A stretch of DNA of 64,000 nucleotides from Candidatus Poseidonia sp. (GTDB lineage Archaea > Thermoplasmatota > Poseidoniia > Poseidoniales > Poseidoniaceae). Below the pieces are notes generated by a model. It was given only the letters and a program-made list of their open reading frames with translations. It was not told the origin of the DNA and made no database searches. The position numbers were made by a program, and so were the translations under genes. The stretch lies in NCBI GenBank assembly GCA_030829545.1, contig JAURAI010000008.1:1-64000 (forward strand), read 5' to 3'. Positions 55,201-64,000 of this stretch are shown here, piece after piece. Numbering within the stretch: position 1 is the stretch's first letter; every line of letters starts with the position of its first letter.

Positions 55201-56685
55201 TCAGTCCTCTGGGCTTTTCCTTTCGTTCATGCTCTCGAGGCGCTTTTGAGCGTCTTTTCGGATACGTTCATGTGGTGAATTTAGACCGGCTTCAAACATT
55301 TCACGCATCCTCGGGTAATGGGGGAAGTTATGAGGTACGAGCATGTAGGCCCACCGCAAGACAAAGCGCCAAGGAGAATGCCAAATTTCGTCAACCAGCA
55401 GATAAGCATCCTCGTCGTTGATGTCCCTCATGCCAGACAAGATGACTCTTTGTACTTCTCCAGAACCGTTTTTCATCAGTGGAAGCCAAAGTTTCCCGTG
55501 ATTTACCGCCATGTTGCGTTTTGAGGCTTCAACAATGCCAATCTGAACCCCCTCCAATGGACATGAAAGGCGCTCGCTTGCCCATCGTTCGAACCACGAA
55601 CCGTATGTGCGTACATGCTGAAGAAAACGGCCCAATTCGTGTTGAGGTAACTCTTCAATGATGCGTCGTATCCAAACATCCATGTTTTGACGGTGCGATA
55701 ACCACGTGACGAGGTTTCGTTCCAACCAAGCACTCGGCTCTTCCTCGAGCAAGATATCGCTCTGCTCAATCAAAGCTTCCTCCAGTTCCGCAAAACGATT
55801 CAAGCGTTCGTGGACCGACCAGCCCAATGTCTCAATGGGATGGTTCAGTAAGCCATGGAGATCCTTCCATGCAGTTTCGGCATCGGTAGAGGGATAATGG
55901 TTTAATGCACTTCGAACCACAACGGGGTTGCGTGAAGTCGCAACTAAGTTGCGAATCATTTGAAGGACATTCTCCTCATTTTCTCCCCCCGTCTGCGCGA
56001 TGGCCCAAAGGACGTCGTACTCCTCTCGGTCAGTATGCTCCCTGAGAATTCGTTGAGCGATGGCGCTGGCTGCCTCGGGATAAAATGGCCATCGGAAGGA
56101 GTCTCGCAGAAGTGCCCAGTCATCACCCTCAAGGGTGGTTAATGCGTGCTCTACAGCGTCCTCTGGAACGCGCACGCAATTCAAAAAGGCTGTTTGGAGG
56201 TCACGGCGACGGCGGTCGAGAACGGGATTGTACCTTGCATGACTTTGCCCCAAATGTTTTTCGGGATAGAGACTGTTCAAAAGAGTTCGTGGAAGGTGTT
56301 GAATCGGTATCTCATCACTTCCACAAAGCAACAGAAAACAGGCCACGAAATCGGTATGGAGTAGGCTCTGTGCTCCTGGTTCTGGTACGACGCATACTCG
56401 AATACCGTTCACTTCCACGGGCAAATGCCGAGCCTGAAATCGGGATCCCACCGAACAACCTGCGTCGAGGCTTGCGGCCGCCATGGGAAAGACAGCGAGT
56501 TCATGGCCGTTCACAATCCGAACCAATCGCTCTCCATGGGTGGATTGCTGCACATCCCACATTCCTGACTCTTTTGCAAGTTCCTCGCACCAAGCAAGGG
56601 CTCGGAGAATTGCGGCCCGCCGCTTGTTACTGAGTTTTCCGGGAAATGCAATTGTGCCAAATGGCGTGGCTTGGACGGACATCAC
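55201..56685 (-). CDS. Large soluble protein, possibly helical-repeat (HEAT-like), function unknown
   Basis: Long ORF with alternating helical segments; no catalytic motif recognised. Confidence 0.55.
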   Translation of the reverse strand: MMSVQATPFGTIAFPGKLSNKRRAAILRALAWCEELAKESGMWDVQQSTHGERLVRIVNGHELAVFPMAAASLDAGCSVGSRFQARHLPVEVNGIRVCVVPEPGAQSLLHTDFVACFLLLCGSDEIPIQHLPRTLLNSLYPEKHLGQSHARYNPVLDRRRRDLQTAFLNCVRVPEDAVEHALTTLEGDDWALLRDSFRWPFYPEAASAIAQRILREHTDREEYDVLWAIAQTGGENEENVLQMIRNLVATSRNPVVVRSALNHYPSTDAETAWKDLHGLLNHPIETLGWSVHERLNRFAELEEALIEQSDILLEEEPSAWLERNLVTWLSHRQNMDVWIRRIIEELPQHELGRFLQHVRTYGSWFERWASERLSCPLEGVQIGIVEASKRNMAVNHGKLWLPLMKNGSGEVQRVILSGMRDINDEDAYLLVDEIWHSPWRFVLRWAYMLVPHNFPHYPRMREMFEAGLNSPHERIRKDAQKRLESMNERKSPED

Positions 56686-56811: not shown

Positions 56812-57237
56812 TCATTGGACGATCAAACTTGAAGCATTGGAGTCAACGTCACTGCTTACCTTTGATGAAGGCCAGCGCCATATCGCATAGGAGAGAGCCA
56901 TCATGCCGAGTTGAGCCAGTAAGCGAAGCATGTGCCAGTGATGGGCATAGGTCTTCCCGTCAAGGGGGATGTTGTTCACCCACATGTTGAAGTTCGCCCA
57001 ATAGATTCCAACGAGAAACACCAGGCTGGCCAGTCCTGCATGGGGACGAGTCCAAGGCAGAATGAGGCCGACGCCAATCGCAATTTCGATGACGCCTGTG
57101 ATGAGAACCCAGATGGTTTGGTCACCCAAAACGGTGGGCACTATGGGTTCGAACCACGCGGTATTGGTGAAGTGCTGAACGCCGACATTGACGTACATAC
57201 CGCCAAAGATTACGCCCAGTACTGCGCCTATTTTCAT
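56812..57237 (-). CDS. DoxX-like small membrane protein
   Basis: MKIGAVLGVIFGGMYVNVGVQHF... with four hydrophobic segments; true start uncertain (ORF to 57363). Confidence 0.55.
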   Translation of the reverse strand: MKIGAVLGVIFGGMYVNVGVQHFTNTAWFEPIVPTVLGDQTIWVLITGVIEIAIGVGLILPWTRPHAGLASLVFLVGIYWANFNMWVNNIPLDGKTYAHHWHMLRLLAQLGMMALSYAIWRWPSSKVSSDVDSNASSLIVQ

Positions 57238-57347
57238 GGGTAAGGCAATGTATGAACAGTCTTGAAGGTTCGTGTACAGAAATACGTTTTGAACACTCGG
57301 ATGCATCATGGCAACCTTGTGCCCGTTTAAAAATTGTAAAATCCCAA

Positions 57348-57356: not shown

Positions 57357-57438
57357 GGTTCATCCACTGGTATCATCTAACCCTGACGGCTTAGGGTGAC
57401 TTTTTCCCTTGTTACTGAATCATTTGGAGGTGTGCGGG

Positions 57439-60400
57439 ATGGCAAAAAAGAAACCACCGACCTTCCACACCATCCATCATATTTGGAAGTACAGATTTCA
57501 TAGGAAACCAGAAACAAGAGATTGGATTTTCTATCTAAGCCGACCCGGTCTTGAATTTCTCCGTAAACCTGATGAAGATAGCAAAGCCGGGTACGAATTC
57601 TTGAAAGAGGAAATTAAGGAATTTCTCAACGGATCGGAAAAGAAAACGGGAAACATCATTTTCAAAACAATCACCGGTCCGGATTCGATCTATGCCACCT
57701 TCATGTACCCCTTCAATATTCAAGAAGAGGCGAGTGGACGTACGGGGTGTATCATTCATGTCGGGAAGACGGAATCCGAATTGGCCACATCTAAAATCGA
57801 CGACTCTCCTGTTGCTTCATCTTCAATGTTCAGCTCAGAAATAACTGAATGGGTCAAGGAGTCTCTAACGACTCCTCCCGGAATAGATGATGTAGACCCA
57901 ATGTGGAATGAGTTCTCAGGTGCGAAATTCCTCCCAACTGATGAACTTCTCAAGCCCGAAGGAAAATGGAGAGATTTCCGACATCTTCTCTGTCATCAAT
58001 TTATTGAAATCCGACTTACGAGGCATACATTGGATGGAAAGGCATCGAGCGGAGAACAGATTGACGCTCTGAACCAATTTCAATCAACAAGTTCGGGTTT
58101 TGCTCATTTTGGTGGAGCCCCGGGAACTGGGAAATCAACGCTCCTACACATGGTCTGCGCCCATCGTTTAGCACTCAACAAAGGACTGGATCGAGGCCTC
58201 AAGAAGGATATTTTTTACTACACGCCCTCGTTTTTGCTCAAAGAGGAAGGGCAACGTGAAATTAAAACAATCCTAGAATACATCTATCTTGCGACACAGC
58301 AAGATTTAGTTGAATTAATGCACAACATCAAGTTCGTTTCACAAGAAGAGTTGTACCTCGCTGATGAACCTGGGAGGGAATGGAATCTACTGGGGGATAC
58401 CGGTAGCCAAAACAAATTGATGAAGCTTTTTGGAAAGAAGAAGGGGGATGTAAGCGGAATTGTAAAAGAAGTTAACCTGTTCAAGCAACAAGTACGCCAA
58501 CTCGTCATTGGGGTGTTTGAAAGCAAGAACAATTTCTTGCATTTCGCAAAAAAACAATCCAAACAGAATTGGGATGAACAAGAATTAAATCTCTTTAATC
58601 CGAATCAACCATCGCCTCAAGGGATCCGCCTTAAAACCTTCATGGAAGGAGATGACCTTGAGAAATTTAAGCGTAAATTACGCCAAATCGACCTCTTTGA
58701 AGGGACTCACCCTGGCGCTTATTGGGATCCAACCTTAATGATCCTCAATGCGAAAAATCAACGTCATCCAGACGGGAACATTTGGAACGAACTTAAAGGA
58801 AAGATGAATTACATCGTGATGGATGAAGCACAAGACATCAATATCAGCGAGATCCGTACCATTTTAACTCACTTTTCAAGTAGACAAGAGGAGAATAATT
58901 TTGATGATTTCCACTTTATCGGTGCGGGAGATGAAAATCAAAACATCAAGCAACTCATGTTTTTCTCTCAAAACCACCACCTCAAACATCTGTTTAGTGA
59001 CTGGACACGCAGTCTCAAGGTCAAGGCTTCAAAAGATCAAATGCTCTTGTCTCACGGGCTTGATGAAATCCAGAATACAATTCTCAAGTCAGCATATCGA
59101 ATTTTTGACGAAATGATTGAGCCAATACAAGAAATACTTAAGCAAATTCATGACATTTCTGAGGATAAAAAAAACCCCTCCGGTTTTCAAAAAACACTTT
59201 TTGGGAGAAAAGGAGTATTTTGTATCAATCCTCCAAATGGTGGAAACCATATTACCGGAAAATGGAACAAAATGATTCTTGAAAAATTGGCACTACAACT
59301 TGAAGATGAAAAAGAAAAACTCTCCAATAACATTGCCCCGTTGGTTGTAGCCCTGTGCTTCGATGAAGACGATCTCAAACCGGATAATTTCAACCTTGGT
59401 TCAAACCCACTTTCTGAGAGATTAACGGGCGTTCCAAATGCTAACGAACTTCATGACAGTGTTAATGAATTACTCACACGATTTACGAACAAATTCATTG
59501 AAAAGAAACAGGGTGATGCTGAACCAACGTACCAAGATTGGCTCAATGAGTTATCCTTTAGGGGGGTGTTGTCGGTCAAAGATATCAAAGGCCTCACCGT
59601 TCCAATTACGATCATCATCCCACCGGTCCTCTTATTGGAGGAGGCAAAAAATCAGCGTATTAATCAAGAAAAGTTTTCTAAATTCCTTGTGCAACTTACT
59701 CGAGCCCAATACTATAACTTGCTACTTGATAACGTTCAAGAATTGGGTATGAGTGAGTATTTGGTCACTGAAATTGAAAAAGAAAATGTCGAGCCGTGGC
59801 TAAGCAGTGTCTTACAGCATTCATTAGGTTTTGATCCATCCTTTGAATTACTCTTCAAGCAAACGCTTCAAAATTACGACTCTGAGATTTACTGGCAAAA
59901 ACTGAAATTAAAGGTAGACGACATGGATGATGACATCAAGCAATATGTGCGCTTCATGGAAGAGTTTTACATTTCTCTTCAAGGTAACAAACTTGCTCCA
60001 AACCTGAACGAATTCTTCACACTCCAACGTGAAAATTCCGCAAATCCTGACATCATTGAGATTTCAAATATCAAACTCCAAGATACATCCAATAATACCA
60101 TGGAAATTGATGCACTCAAGGAAATCGATGAAAAATACCTTCTCGGAACTCGAATGGACAAGAAATATCTCGCTTCTGTAATGCTTTTCGTGGTAATTAA
60201 CCACTACATTCGAAAGAAACTTCATCGCGAAACCAACGATGGCGATGAAAACCTAACCCTTCCGAATGAGTTACTTGGATACATGAAAAATTGGGTCCAG
60301 GAGAACCAAGATTCTACAATTGCTGAAAACAATGAAACAACACAATGGTTCAATCTAATTTCTGGAGAGTACAGTGAAACGAATCCTGTTTTACGATCAC

Positions 60401-63291
60401 TTCGTGAAAGTTTCATACCAAGATTGTCCGAAGAAGGTACTTACAGATGCGGTATGTCAGAAGAATGGAAATGGCCATCCATGAAATCACCTCGCCTCGA
60501 CATGGGGTATTGGAGATTTACTCAGCCATCAGAAAAATCATCAGATAGTGTCACTGCAAATGAATATGACCTTGCAGATGCGTGGATGAGTGAACAGTCA
60601 AATTTCTTCCGAGTCCCGAAACATATTCTTACCGAAGCGGCGATAAAATCTGGACCAAGGCATAATGATACTCATATACCTCACTGGCTCAAAATGCAAC
60701 ATGGAATGGCAACATTCAAACCAAAAATCTTCGTAAGTGGGTTGATAAAATTAATTAATTCACACCAAGGTGACACCTCACACAACTACATACGGAAGAT
60801 TACCAAAGATAGAGACGGCAAGGAAATATTCAAATTTCCGGTGTTAGATTGGTATGTCGATGTCATCCATCACAAAGACAACACTGAACAAATGAATGAA
60901 TTCCACCTGAAGTGCTGCGAAATCCTTCAAGAAGAACTCACAGGTGAAGTCAGAAACATACCTTTGATTGAATTGTTTTCCGACTATCTCGCCTCTGTTG
61001 AAACGATTGCACAATTAAGCAAGATTATTTCTGCATTCAAGTTTAGTAAATGGTCGTTTGCCGGCGAACGATCAATTATGGATGTCTTCGAACGCACACT
61101 CGGTCTTATGGAGAATTATATCTCAGAAGTTGTTGAGATTGATAATGCGGTGAAGGAAATCAACAATCTAAACAATAAGATCCTTGTAGAGCAGGGAGAC
61201 ATTGACCGACTGGAACAGGCTATCGCCCGTGAACATCGCAGATTGCAAGATGACAGTACGAGGAACAAGTCAACGCTCAATGGATTGAAGAGTCAATTAA
61301 ATGGACATCGAGAAAAACATGAAACCTTCGAGAAGCAAAGAAATTCCTTGGAAGCCAATACTAATATCCGAAAACGCCGCCATAACATGCTTTATGATGA
61401 GGCCTTGCAAGAGAGCTTGAAAACGAATCCGTTTGCTCCAAGTCACAACCAATCGCAGACCAACGTGGTTGATGGAGGAAATGAAGAATCCCGTGCGGGA
61501 TTGTATAAGTTCTTCAATAAAGAGTTCAAGAGTGCGATGGAAGAATTGGGTGATCGGGATGCAATGCGGCGTTATCATCGCACATTTGTATCCATGGCAA
61601 ATCTCAATCAAATTCTATTGAGTGATAATATCACTAAGCAATTGATGGAATTTGAGATAGATGTTGCTCCTTTTACACAAGGTAAAAACCAACAACATCT
61701 CAATGAATTTTACAAGCATTATGTCAACATCAATGAGAATACACTTACCCAAATCCGGAATGAATTAACTGACGTACTCGCGCAAAATCATGACGACGAG
61801 GCAAGTGACAAGAAAACCTCACAGGAGGCATGGAGTCGATTCCTCACCTCAATCCACAACCTCGGAGACATCAAAGGCGGACTCAAAGAAAATCTTCTGA
61901 AACCAATCAGGAAAGAAAACAGCAATTTCTTATCCATCTTATTGGAACGAGCGCTCAGTGATGACCCCGAGATCAACAAAATGTCTTGGAATCTTTTGTA
62001 CTATCTCATCAATCCTTCATCGGTCCGACAAATTGCTGACTTCGATTCATTCAAGTCAATCGATTCATTCAAGTCAAGTTGGTTTGAGATTCAGGAATTT
62101 GATGTCATCAGTGATAACATCTATCCTGGTCCTAAAGTAACGGATTTTAACAGGTTGACCTACCTACCCCATACGCTTATCGATTCTAACCTGCCAAAAT
62201 TCGATGAGAGACCTCTGCACAACTTATCTGCTGCACGCGCTTTGTCTTTCCTCAACAGAAACGAGTATCCTCAGGCTATTGATTCATTCAATGCATCTGG
62301 GCATCTAAAATATTCCAGCACCTTACGACTTGCTCGAACATACCTTAAGGAGAATGAGGGCGAAAATTTCCGACGAGAAATACTGATGGAGATTGTTTCC
62401 ATCTTGAGGAACGAAATGGAAATCCTTGAAGAAATCATATACGATATCGGCACGAACAAAGAGAAAATCAAAGAATTAAATCAGACCATGAACTACGGAG
62501 TTGGGGTGGAGAAATTAAAGCTCCCAATGACGACGAAATCCACATCACTCATGAATAAGATGTTCCCTCAATTCACATTTTCAGCATCTGGGAAATCCTT
62601 CGAGGGTGGAAAGCCGATAATTCTCACAGAGGTAAAAGATTTCAAAATTCTGAATTACTTTCAACATTACCAACGGGTCAAAAACCTGACGTTGTACGCC
62701 GATTTCATTGAAGAGGTCATCAATGAGAAATCAGGTAAAGACATGTCAAGATATCTGGGGGAGATTCAAAAATGCGATCTCAGTAAATACAGACTCTTTA
62801 GAGATTCACGACATATAGGTACAAAATACAAATTAAAATGGAATGAAGCAAATGGGGGCCTGACGATTGACGAAGAGAACTATGAAGATGAAGGTATCAA
62901 ACAACTCCATTCATTCGTAATCAAATGCCTTGAACAAGATGGAAACATAGCCCAATCTGAGTTCAAAAATGCTCTTTTGGAACTGACCAACGTTCATGGA
63001 TACCTCAAAGACAAAATTGCAGAAATGCTTGACGATGACGCTGCTACCAAGTCTCCAGTGGATGCCGATTCTGAATACTTTGAGAAATTAAATACAATTT
63101 TCAAACATCAAAAATATATCGACGCTGGAAAACCATATGTCCAACACCTGCTTCCTGTGGTTATTGGTATTGCGAAGGGCGATACCAATGAAAAACAAGC
63201 CATTAGTGATATAATCAAATCAATTGATGACAATGATAAGATTGAGGTTCACAAAATTCTTTCAGAATTGGAGCAAAGAAGAGGGTCGTAG
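57439..63291 (+). CDS. Giant (~1950 aa) SF1/UvrD-like NTPase with C-terminal helical region, function unknown
   Basis: Walker A GAPGTGKST (58114-58140), motif II DEAQD (58822-58836), motif III GAGDENQ (~58921), motif V-like DIKGLTVPITII (~59580), motif VI QLTRAQ (~59695); SD GGAGGTG just before ATG 57439. Confidence 0.85.
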   Translation: MAKKKPPTFHTIHHIWKYRFHRKPETRDWIFYLSRPGLEFLRKPDEDSKAGYEFLKEEIKEFLNGSEKKTGNIIFKTITGPDSIYATFMYPFNIQEEASGRTGCIIHVGKTESELATSKIDDSPVASSSMFSSEITEWVKESLTTPPGIDDVDPMWNEFSGAKFLPTDELLKPEGKWRDFRHLLCHQFIEIRLTRHTLDGKASSGEQIDALNQFQSTSSGFAHFGGAPGTGKSTLLHMVCAHRLALNKGLDRGLKKDIFYYTPSFLLKEEGQREIKTILEYIYLATQQDLVELMHNIKFVSQEELYLADEPGREWNLLGDTGSQNKLMKLFGKKKGDVSGIVKEVNLFKQQVRQLVIGVFESKNNFLHFAKKQSKQNWDEQELNLFNPNQPSPQGIRLKTFMEGDDLEKFKRKLRQIDLFEGTHPGAYWDPTLMILNAKNQRHPDGNIWNELKGKMNYIVMDEAQDINISEIRTILTHFSSRQEENNFDDFHFIGAGDENQNIKQLMFFSQNHHLKHLFSDWTRSLKVKASKDQMLLSHGLDEIQNTILKSAYRIFDEMIEPIQEILKQIHDISEDKKNPSGFQKTLFGRKGVFCINPPNGGNHITGKWNKMILEKLALQLEDEKEKLSNNIAPLVVALCFDEDDLKPDNFNLGSNPLSERLTGVPNANELHDSVNELLTRFTNKFIEKKQGDAEPTYQDWLNELSFRGVLSVKDIKGLTVPITIIIPPVLLLEEAKNQRINQEKFSKFLVQLTRAQYYNLLLDNVQELGMSEYLVTEIEKENVEPWLSSVLQHSLGFDPSFELLFKQTLQNYDSEIYWQKLKLKVDDMDDDIKQYVRFMEEFYISLQGNKLAPNLNEFFTLQRENSANPDIIEISNIKLQDTSNNTMEIDALKEIDEKYLLGTRMDKKYLASVMLFVVINHYIRKKLHRETNDGDENLTLPNELLGYMKNWVQENQDSTIAENNETTQWFNLISGEYSETNPVLRSLRESFIPRLSEEGTYRCGMSEEWKWPSMKSPRLDMGYWRFTQPSEKSSDSVTANEYDLADAWMSEQSNFFRVPKHILTEAAIKSGPRHNDTHIPHWLKMQHGMATFKPKIFVSGLIKLINSHQGDTSHNYIRKITKDRDGKEIFKFPVLDWYVDVIHHKDNTEQMNEFHLKCCEILQEELTGEVRNIPLIELFSDYLASVETIAQLSKIISAFKFSKWSFAGERSIMDVFERTLGLMENYISEVVEIDNAVKEINNLNNKILVEQGDIDRLEQAIAREHRRLQDDSTRNKSTLNGLKSQLNGHREKHETFEKQRNSLEANTNIRKRRHNMLYDEALQESLKTNPFAPSHNQSQTNVVDGGNEESRAGLYKFFNKEFKSAMEELGDRDAMRRYHRTFVSMANLNQILLSDNITKQLMEFEIDVAPFTQGKNQQHLNEFYKHYVNINENTLTQIRNELTDVLAQNHDDEASDKKTSQEAWSRFLTSIHNLGDIKGGLKENLLKPIRKENSNFLSILLERALSDDPEINKMSWNLLYYLINPSSVRQIADFDSFKSIDSFKSSWFEIQEFDVISDNIYPGPKVTDFNRLTYLPHTLIDSNLPKFDERPLHNLSAARALSFLNRNEYPQAIDSFNASGHLKYSSTLRLARTYLKENEGENFRREILMEIVSILRNEMEILEEIIYDIGTNKEKIKELNQTMNYGVGVEKLKLPMTTKSTSLMNKMFPQFTFSASGKSFEGGKPIILTEVKDFKILNYFQHYQRVKNLTLYADFIEEVINEKSGKDMSRYLGEIQKCDLSKYRLFRDSRHIGTKYKLKWNEANGGLTIDEENYEDEGIKQLHSFVIKCLEQDGNIAQSEFKNALLELTNVHGYLKDKIAEMLDDDAATKSPVDADSEYFEKLNTIFKHQKYIDAGKPYVQHLLPVVIGIAKGDTNEKQAISDIIKSIDDNDKIEVHKILSELEQRRGS
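62042..62077 (+). repeat. Perfect 18-bp in-frame tandem duplication inside the giant SF1 gene
   Basis: tcgattcattcaagtcaa repeated twice head-to-tail, encoding FDSFKSIDSFKS. Confidence 0.95.
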
Positions 63292-63319: not shown

Positions 63320-64000
63320 CTAAGAGTACCACTCTGCATTGTACATTCCAGACGACGGCCCTTGGCCGATCGACTTTTCAATTAATTCAAATTTCACCTT
63401 GCGAATGGTGAGGAGGTCTCGTATCTCATCAGGACTTACCCGAGTTTTACGGGATGCATAAGGGAGCTTTCCTCTGAACTTTCTCAAATAAATTGCCGCA
63501 TTCAAAACATCCTCTGGTTGTTCATAAAATAACTTCAAATCTTCTTGTTGAATTGGCACGTATAGCCAATTACCAATTGAAGCATTCAATGCCTGTCTGG
63601 CAAAATAATTCATGGCTATCTTCTTTTTCAACCCCAATATCTCATCCATGTTGGTACTCGGCATGTGTGAGGTCGTTAAATCTGAAAAACGGATTGAAAC
63701 CTCGTCGTGTAGGTCTATGAATTCTTTACTAGAGTTGATCAAAGGCGTATATTGAATGACCTCGTAATTAGGTTTGAGAAACAAAACCAACCAGTGATTG
63801 AAACCTTCGTCTTCAAGGTCAGCCACTCGAGATTCACGAATCTCTCTTGATAGAATTTTGCATAACGAATCTTTTGGCTTCCTCGGTAGAAAAAAACTCA
63901 TTGGCCCGACCGATGAAAACTGAGTTGAATTCAAATGCTCAACCTTTGGGTCAAATCCATCTGTATCCATTGTAATCGTTGTATGATAGCGATTTTCCAT
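63320..64000 (-). CDS. Unknown protein, possibly truncated by the window edge
   Basis: 226-aa ORF reaching the window end, convergent with the SF1 gene; no recognised domain. Confidence 0.55.
   Translation of the reverse strand: MENRYHTTITMDTDGFDPKVEHLNSTQFSSVGPMSFFLPRKPKDSLCKILSREIRESRVADLEDEGFNHWLVLFLKPNYEVIQYTPLINSSKEFIDLHDEVSIRFSDLTTSHMPSTNMDEILGLKKKIAMNYFARQALNASIGNWLYVPIQQEDLKLFYEQPEDVLNAAIYLRKFRGKLPYASRKTRVSPDEIRDLLTIRKVKFELIEKSIGQGPSSGMYNAEWYS

Follow-up and report, generated by a model that had tools for sequence, protein, structure and literature searches.

The giant gene at positions 57439-63291 of the window (the 64,000-nt stretch of a Candidatus Poseidonia sp. contig that was analysed) belongs to a four-gene, AT-rich island, which occupies an insertion of ~11 kb between a doxX-like gene and the tRNA-Tyr gene next to ftsZ. 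Its product of 1950 aa is assigned by its ordered motifs to the SF1A (UvrD/Rep-like) superfamily, and motor activity is predicted for it. We give roughly even chances that the island at this tRNA-Tyr hotspot is a defence (inter-element conflict) system, as yet uncharacterised, that would combine an ABC ATPase with an SF1 motor against viruses or plasmids, and the best reading is a strain-specific conflict system that would be Gabija-like in its logic but is not Gabija. The original prediction had taken the gene for a candidate single- or two-gene defence or conflict system. The setting is consistent with a conflict island, a defence role is suggested by that context, and the single- or two-gene form gave way to an island in which the giant gene is accompanied by a three-gene operon.

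The gene is a single intact open frame on the forward strand, running over 1950 codons from an ATG at 57439 to a stop at 63291, in agreement with the predicted size. A Shine-Dalgarno-like GGAGGTG lies directly 5' of this ATG, and an in-frame TTG at 57409 is a less likely alternative start. Its GC content is ~40%, compared with 49-56% for the backbone. The motor core (58111-59709, forward strand) contains SF1A motifs I to VI in the correct order and with the catalytic residues kept (residues 225-757), as had been predicted for all of them but motif IV. These are motif I GGAPGTGKST with an intact Walker A lysine (residue 225, nt 58111), motif II VMDEAQD (residue 460, nt 58816), motif III GDENQN (residue 497, nt 58927), a motif IV-like KSAYR with YR at the motif IV position (residue 550, nt 59086), motif V DIKGL (residue 715, nt 59581) and motif VI QLTRAQ (residue 752, nt 59692), and a Q-motif-like GEQIDAL stands N-terminal to motif I. 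When the protein was shuffled 20,000 times, the ordered pattern never arose (0 of 20,000), and the giant ORF was its sole match among 445 ORFs from all loci compared; as the pattern was fitted to the giant protein itself, these counts gauge chance and not kinship. When the N-terminal motor segment alone was searched, Pfam AAA_19 was matched at E 4.1e-6 (27.4 bits, passing the cut-off of 25.1) and UvrD-helicase at 2.2e-4, below its cut-off; the full-length protein did not reach the AAA_19 cut-off.

The long flanks of the motor were less informative. The N-terminal region (aa 1-221, 57439-58101, forward strand), which ends just before motif I and had been read as a novel domain, gave no family match, and a single-sequence structure model of aa 1-204 was uninformative at pLDDT 33, homologues being absent. 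By heptad scoring, a coiled coil lies near residues 1210-1320 (61066-61410, forward strand; the top 84-residue windows begin at 1210-1240), which agrees with the earlier placement at ~61150-61390. Outside the motor and the coiled coil, no domain was found in Pfam, NCBIfam, PADLOC, PHROGs or PDB sequences. None of the repeat families in Pfam, TPR and HEAT among them, matched the C-terminus, which had been described before as TPR-like. TRANK1-like helicases are large proteins with an SF1 motor and long helical flanks, features that the giant protein shares; however, it has no TPR or ankyrin family and no PDB match, and these searches gave no sequence tie for the suggested kinship.

The remaining island genes were read from contig C15, which extends to position 70213, 6.2 kb beyond the window, whose edge falls within the island. 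The giant gene converges with a leftward operon of three genes, and only 28 bp separate its stop from the 386-aa gene. All operon genes are on the reverse strand: the first encodes a 394-aa TFIIB-zinc-ribbon protein (C15:66638-67822), the second a 704-aa putative ABC-type (OLD/PtuA-like) ATPase (C15:64527-66641) and the last a 386-aa protein of no family (C15:63320-64480, of which 63320-64000 lies in the window). The 704-aa and 394-aa genes overlap by 4 bp, and a spacer of ~395 bp separates the latter from tRNA-Tyr. The four island genes have 39-44% GC versus about 53% (their third-position GC is 38-43%), while the flanking genes have 49-56%.

In the 704-aa protein, Walker A (with A in place of the first G), an LSxGxR (LSGxR-type) signature, Walker B and an H-loop follow one another in order, an arrangement seen in 0 of 20,000 shuffles. 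By these motifs it qualifies as an ABC-type (OLD/SMC-like) ATPase with predicted activity; Pfam returned no ABC or AAA match for it. Its only PDB matches were the retron Ec78/PtuA defence ATPases, which are weak (E about 0.9-1.1); the PtuA alignment covers the C-terminal ABC-type part and is in register over the signature and Walker B. A structure model of this ATPase was unusable (pLDDT 35; homologues absent). The 394-aa protein carries a TFIIB zinc ribbon above the cut-off (PF08271, E 1.1e-9), in the form of an N-terminal CxxC...CxxC at residues 12-45 as in TFIIB/TFB. Pfam gave no match to the TFIIB cyclin repeat, and the C-terminus aligns only tenuously with TFB paralogues. In none of the four proteins could an effector of the nuclease, TIR, HEPN, protease or membrane-pore type be recognised.

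Comparison with a genome of the same genus (G021) fixes the right end of the insertion exactly and its left end approximately. The left flank is formed by the doxX-like gene (56812-57249, reverse strand, ORF extendable to 57363), which was recognised from a weak Pfam match below the cut-off and from colinear genomes. To the left of the island G021 is colinear, with 85% identity over 11.2 kb (C15:44001-55190); past this match it continues with a 476-aa gene, doxX, tRNA-Tyr and ftsZ. To the right, identity of 90.6% over 1.57 kb starts at C15:68218, so that homology resumes exactly at the terminal base of the tRNA-Tyr 3' end. The intron-containing tRNA-Tyr lies at C15:68218-68319 on the reverse strand and ftsZ on the forward strand from about C15:68417. 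The gap between the doxX match and the tRNA is 254 bp in G021 versus 11.0 kb in C15. G021 is thus an empty-site comparator for a tRNA-targeted insertion. A second att copy or tRNA-derived repeat was sought at the left end of the island and was not found. Further left, the window holds at 55201-56685 (reverse strand) a 494-aa gene without family match, which is replaced in G021 by the 476-aa gene and is absent there in G005.

Units of ~90 bp recur downstream of tRNA-Tyr, each opening with the tRNA 3' end GGGAGCGGGGAC, after which come an imperfect hairpin and then a ...TCGAGAGGTTGAACG...CCTCTC element. They were seen at C15:68083-68230, L049:1595 and 2154, L080:1273-1476 and L081:3699, and further at L050:1592, L051:1603, L052:1182 and L083:722; in L049 the tRNA end is repeated exactly, together with about 50 bp. 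Judged from their sequence, the units look like an attachment-site array.

The same site carries different genes in other genomes. In G005 and G022, doxX, tRNA-Tyr and ftsZ are kept with other genes in between, and in G013 the site is about 1 kb long and contains repeat units, none of its sequence being a convincing cargo gene. On the tRNA side, the cargo comprises a pair of related coiled-coil proteins in L048 / G006, a 418-aa and an HNH-like 295-aa protein in L049, and a PD-(D/E)XK-like protein of 312 aa in L081, the last being a motif reading without Pfam support. On the doxX side, G026, G018 and G010 open into differing, mostly AT-rich cargo, including an NB-ARC/STAND-like protein of 1174 aa in L084 (G026; Pfam E 9.2e-4, below cut-off) and an AAA ATPase with an HNH-like protein in L086; the HNH-like calls at this site are likewise below the Pfam cut-off. 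Given this nuclease- and STAND-like cargo, a defence role is the best guess for the island. In eight same-genus genomes (G001, G004, G006, G007, G008, G011, G014 and G017) the contig ends ~0.1-2.8 kb upstream of ftsZ, as expected at a site where strains differ.

The G026 region deserves a separate remark. Two adjacent AT-rich ORFs of 1174 and 730 aa lie beside doxX at L084:662-6609, the NB-ARC/STAND-like NTPase being in the first, and the 230-bp gap between them may be the sign of a single gene of about 1980 codons that was broken. In L088 (G018), a relative of the second ORF stands beside doxX. By sequence reading, a ubiquitin-like/JAB/E1/Cdc48-type set follows at L084:6653-14395, and because these genes come next, the doxX-side region of G026 may be rearranged.

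Searches of 191 relatives and of 320 genomes from the order and 392 from the phylum, sets that overlap, gave a single occurrence of the giant protein, in line with the predicted accessory setting. Being confined to this genome in those sets, the gene is not a universal single-copy core gene. It gave no match in phages or plasmids by tblastn, nor in genome contigs or viral contigs by a short-pattern scan that detects close relatives only; weak matches at E 0.02-0.07 were taken as chance. The 704-aa ATPase had no relative in the relatives, phylum, genome-contig, viral-contig and plasmid collections, and a match at E 0.004 was at chance level with an internal stop. For the 386-aa protein, two matches (E 0.007-0.009) both had stops inside and viral contigs gave none. 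Matches of the 394-aa protein were limited to the zinc ribbon of ordinary TFBs, with none in viral contigs; its aa 60-393 had no relative in a search of 177 genomes besides one weak match (E 0.0019). Hence, the zinc ribbon apart, the collections searched yielded no credible relative of any of the four proteins. Their PADLOC matches were short ones to P-loops or coils, with E no better than 8e-4, and none of them was convincing. As a second example of the four-gene cassette was not found either, it cannot be demonstrated that the genes are inherited together.

Gabija is an established defence pairing of an ABC ATPase with a UvrD-like partner, in which GajA is an ABC protein with a C-terminal Toprim and the UvrD-like GajB reportedly hydrolyses nucleotides and does not unwind DNA, its motifs notwithstanding (PMC10568477). 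The island likewise combines an ABC-type ATPase and a UvrD-like SF1 protein, again in an accessory context, but its motor is 1950 aa long, two further genes are present and the layout is convergent. The H-loop of the 704-aa ATPase is at residue 672 of 704, so the protein ends ~30 residues past it and there is no room for a C-terminal Toprim. Consistently, Pfam found no Toprim in this ATPase, the 1950-aa protein did not match the GajB profile, and neither is thus of the Gabija type; a GajB match on the 394-aa protein (E 0.0023) was discarded as weak and outside any motor domain. With Septu and retron Ec78 the island shares the weak alignment of its ABC-type part to PtuA, yet the ATPase is 704 aa long against 550 aa for PtuA, and no reverse transcriptase or HNH partner (PtuB) was recognised: none of the four proteins matched HNH, and HNH-like proteins occupy this site in other genomes only.

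Another TFIIB-ribbon protein adjoins an AddAB-like pair at native GC in both G015 (L014:1958-12300) and G021 (L015:9026-19188). According to Pfam and BLAST on the G021 copies, the pair consists of a UvrD-helicase (2e-34) with PD-(D/E)XK and a second PD-(D/E)XK protein. These third TFB-like copies were considered as sister islands and set aside: their neighbour is the AddAB-like pair and no counterpart of the cassette, their likeness to the 394-aa protein is limited to the ribbon, and the proteins there show no other detectable relation to the cassette. One genus thereby offers two cases of a large SF1 motor next to a TFIIB ribbon, too few to establish a functional link.

Drawing on the Gabija pairing, the ABC motifs of the 704-aa protein and its PtuA matches in the PDB, we propose a sensor or clamp ATPase acting together with a motor. 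The OLD/PtuA-like ATPase and its 386-aa partner would form an ATP-gated sensor or clamp on invading DNA or aberrant DNA ends, and the SF1 motor would translocate on or unwind the clamped DNA. The long helical and coiled-coil C-terminus of the giant protein may serve as the scaffold on which the complex assembles, while the TFIIB-zinc-ribbon protein might recruit RNA polymerase, bind DNA for expression control or tether the complex to transcription. A killing or degrading activity would have to reside in an undetected domain of the 386-aa or the giant protein.

The negative PADLOC search, the lack of a recognisable effector and the lack of a second cassette argue against a defence system, and the island genes could serve an integrated element instead of the host. 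The island would then be the remnant of a plasmid or virus, with the SF1, ABC ATPase and TFB-like genes for its replication, partition and transcription, an explanation which we regard as possible though doubtful. It is favoured by the insertion at the 3' end of a tRNA gene, where archaeal integrative elements typically integrate, by the tRNA-derived repeat units and by a TFIIB-ribbon gene that would suit an archaeal element. However, no integrase, replication-initiator, capsid or portal gene was recognised among the four, no relatives came from viral contigs, phages or plasmids where these were searched, and other cargo at the site resembles nucleases and a STAND-like NTPase.

A role of the giant protein as an accessory motor for DNA repair or recombination, working in ordinary genome maintenance with an SMC/Rad50-like ATPase partner, is quite unlikely. 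It is true that repair machines of the RecBCD and Rad50 types are built around SF1A motors and ABC ATPases, the SF1A motif set is intact, and the native AddAB-like pair of G015 and G021 also stands beside a TFIIB-ribbon protein. Nevertheless, the gene occurs in a single genome, in an AT-rich island at a variable site; its giant size and flanks without known domains are unlike repair helicases, and its similarity to the AddA-like protein is not significant (E 0.23). Highly improbable is an assembly or binning artefact that joined foreign DNA into this MAG (28 contigs, 73.7% complete), which the abrupt GC drop and the absence of relatives within the same order would suit, because the island has its expected neighbours on either side, in DNA colinear with G021, and its right junction coincides exactly with the tRNA 3' end.

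An L15e-like ribosomal protein and the TFB genes also point to an archaeal host. Marine Group II (Poseidoniales) archaea, its probable lineage, are abundant in the sea, and a literature search on their antiviral defences found little. The tRNA-Tyr hotspot with its empty-site comparator is therefore a place to look for new systems. If the island is indeed a defence system, it would widen the class of ABC-ATPase plus helicase systems by a giant SF1 motor and a TFIIB-like component, and would tie archaeal transcription factors to genome conflict. Unlikely as it is, the TFIIB-like factor, the OLD/PtuA-like ABC ATPase and the giant SF1 motor might even act jointly as an archaeal antiviral system of a new type, one that couples the recognition of invading DNA with transcription.
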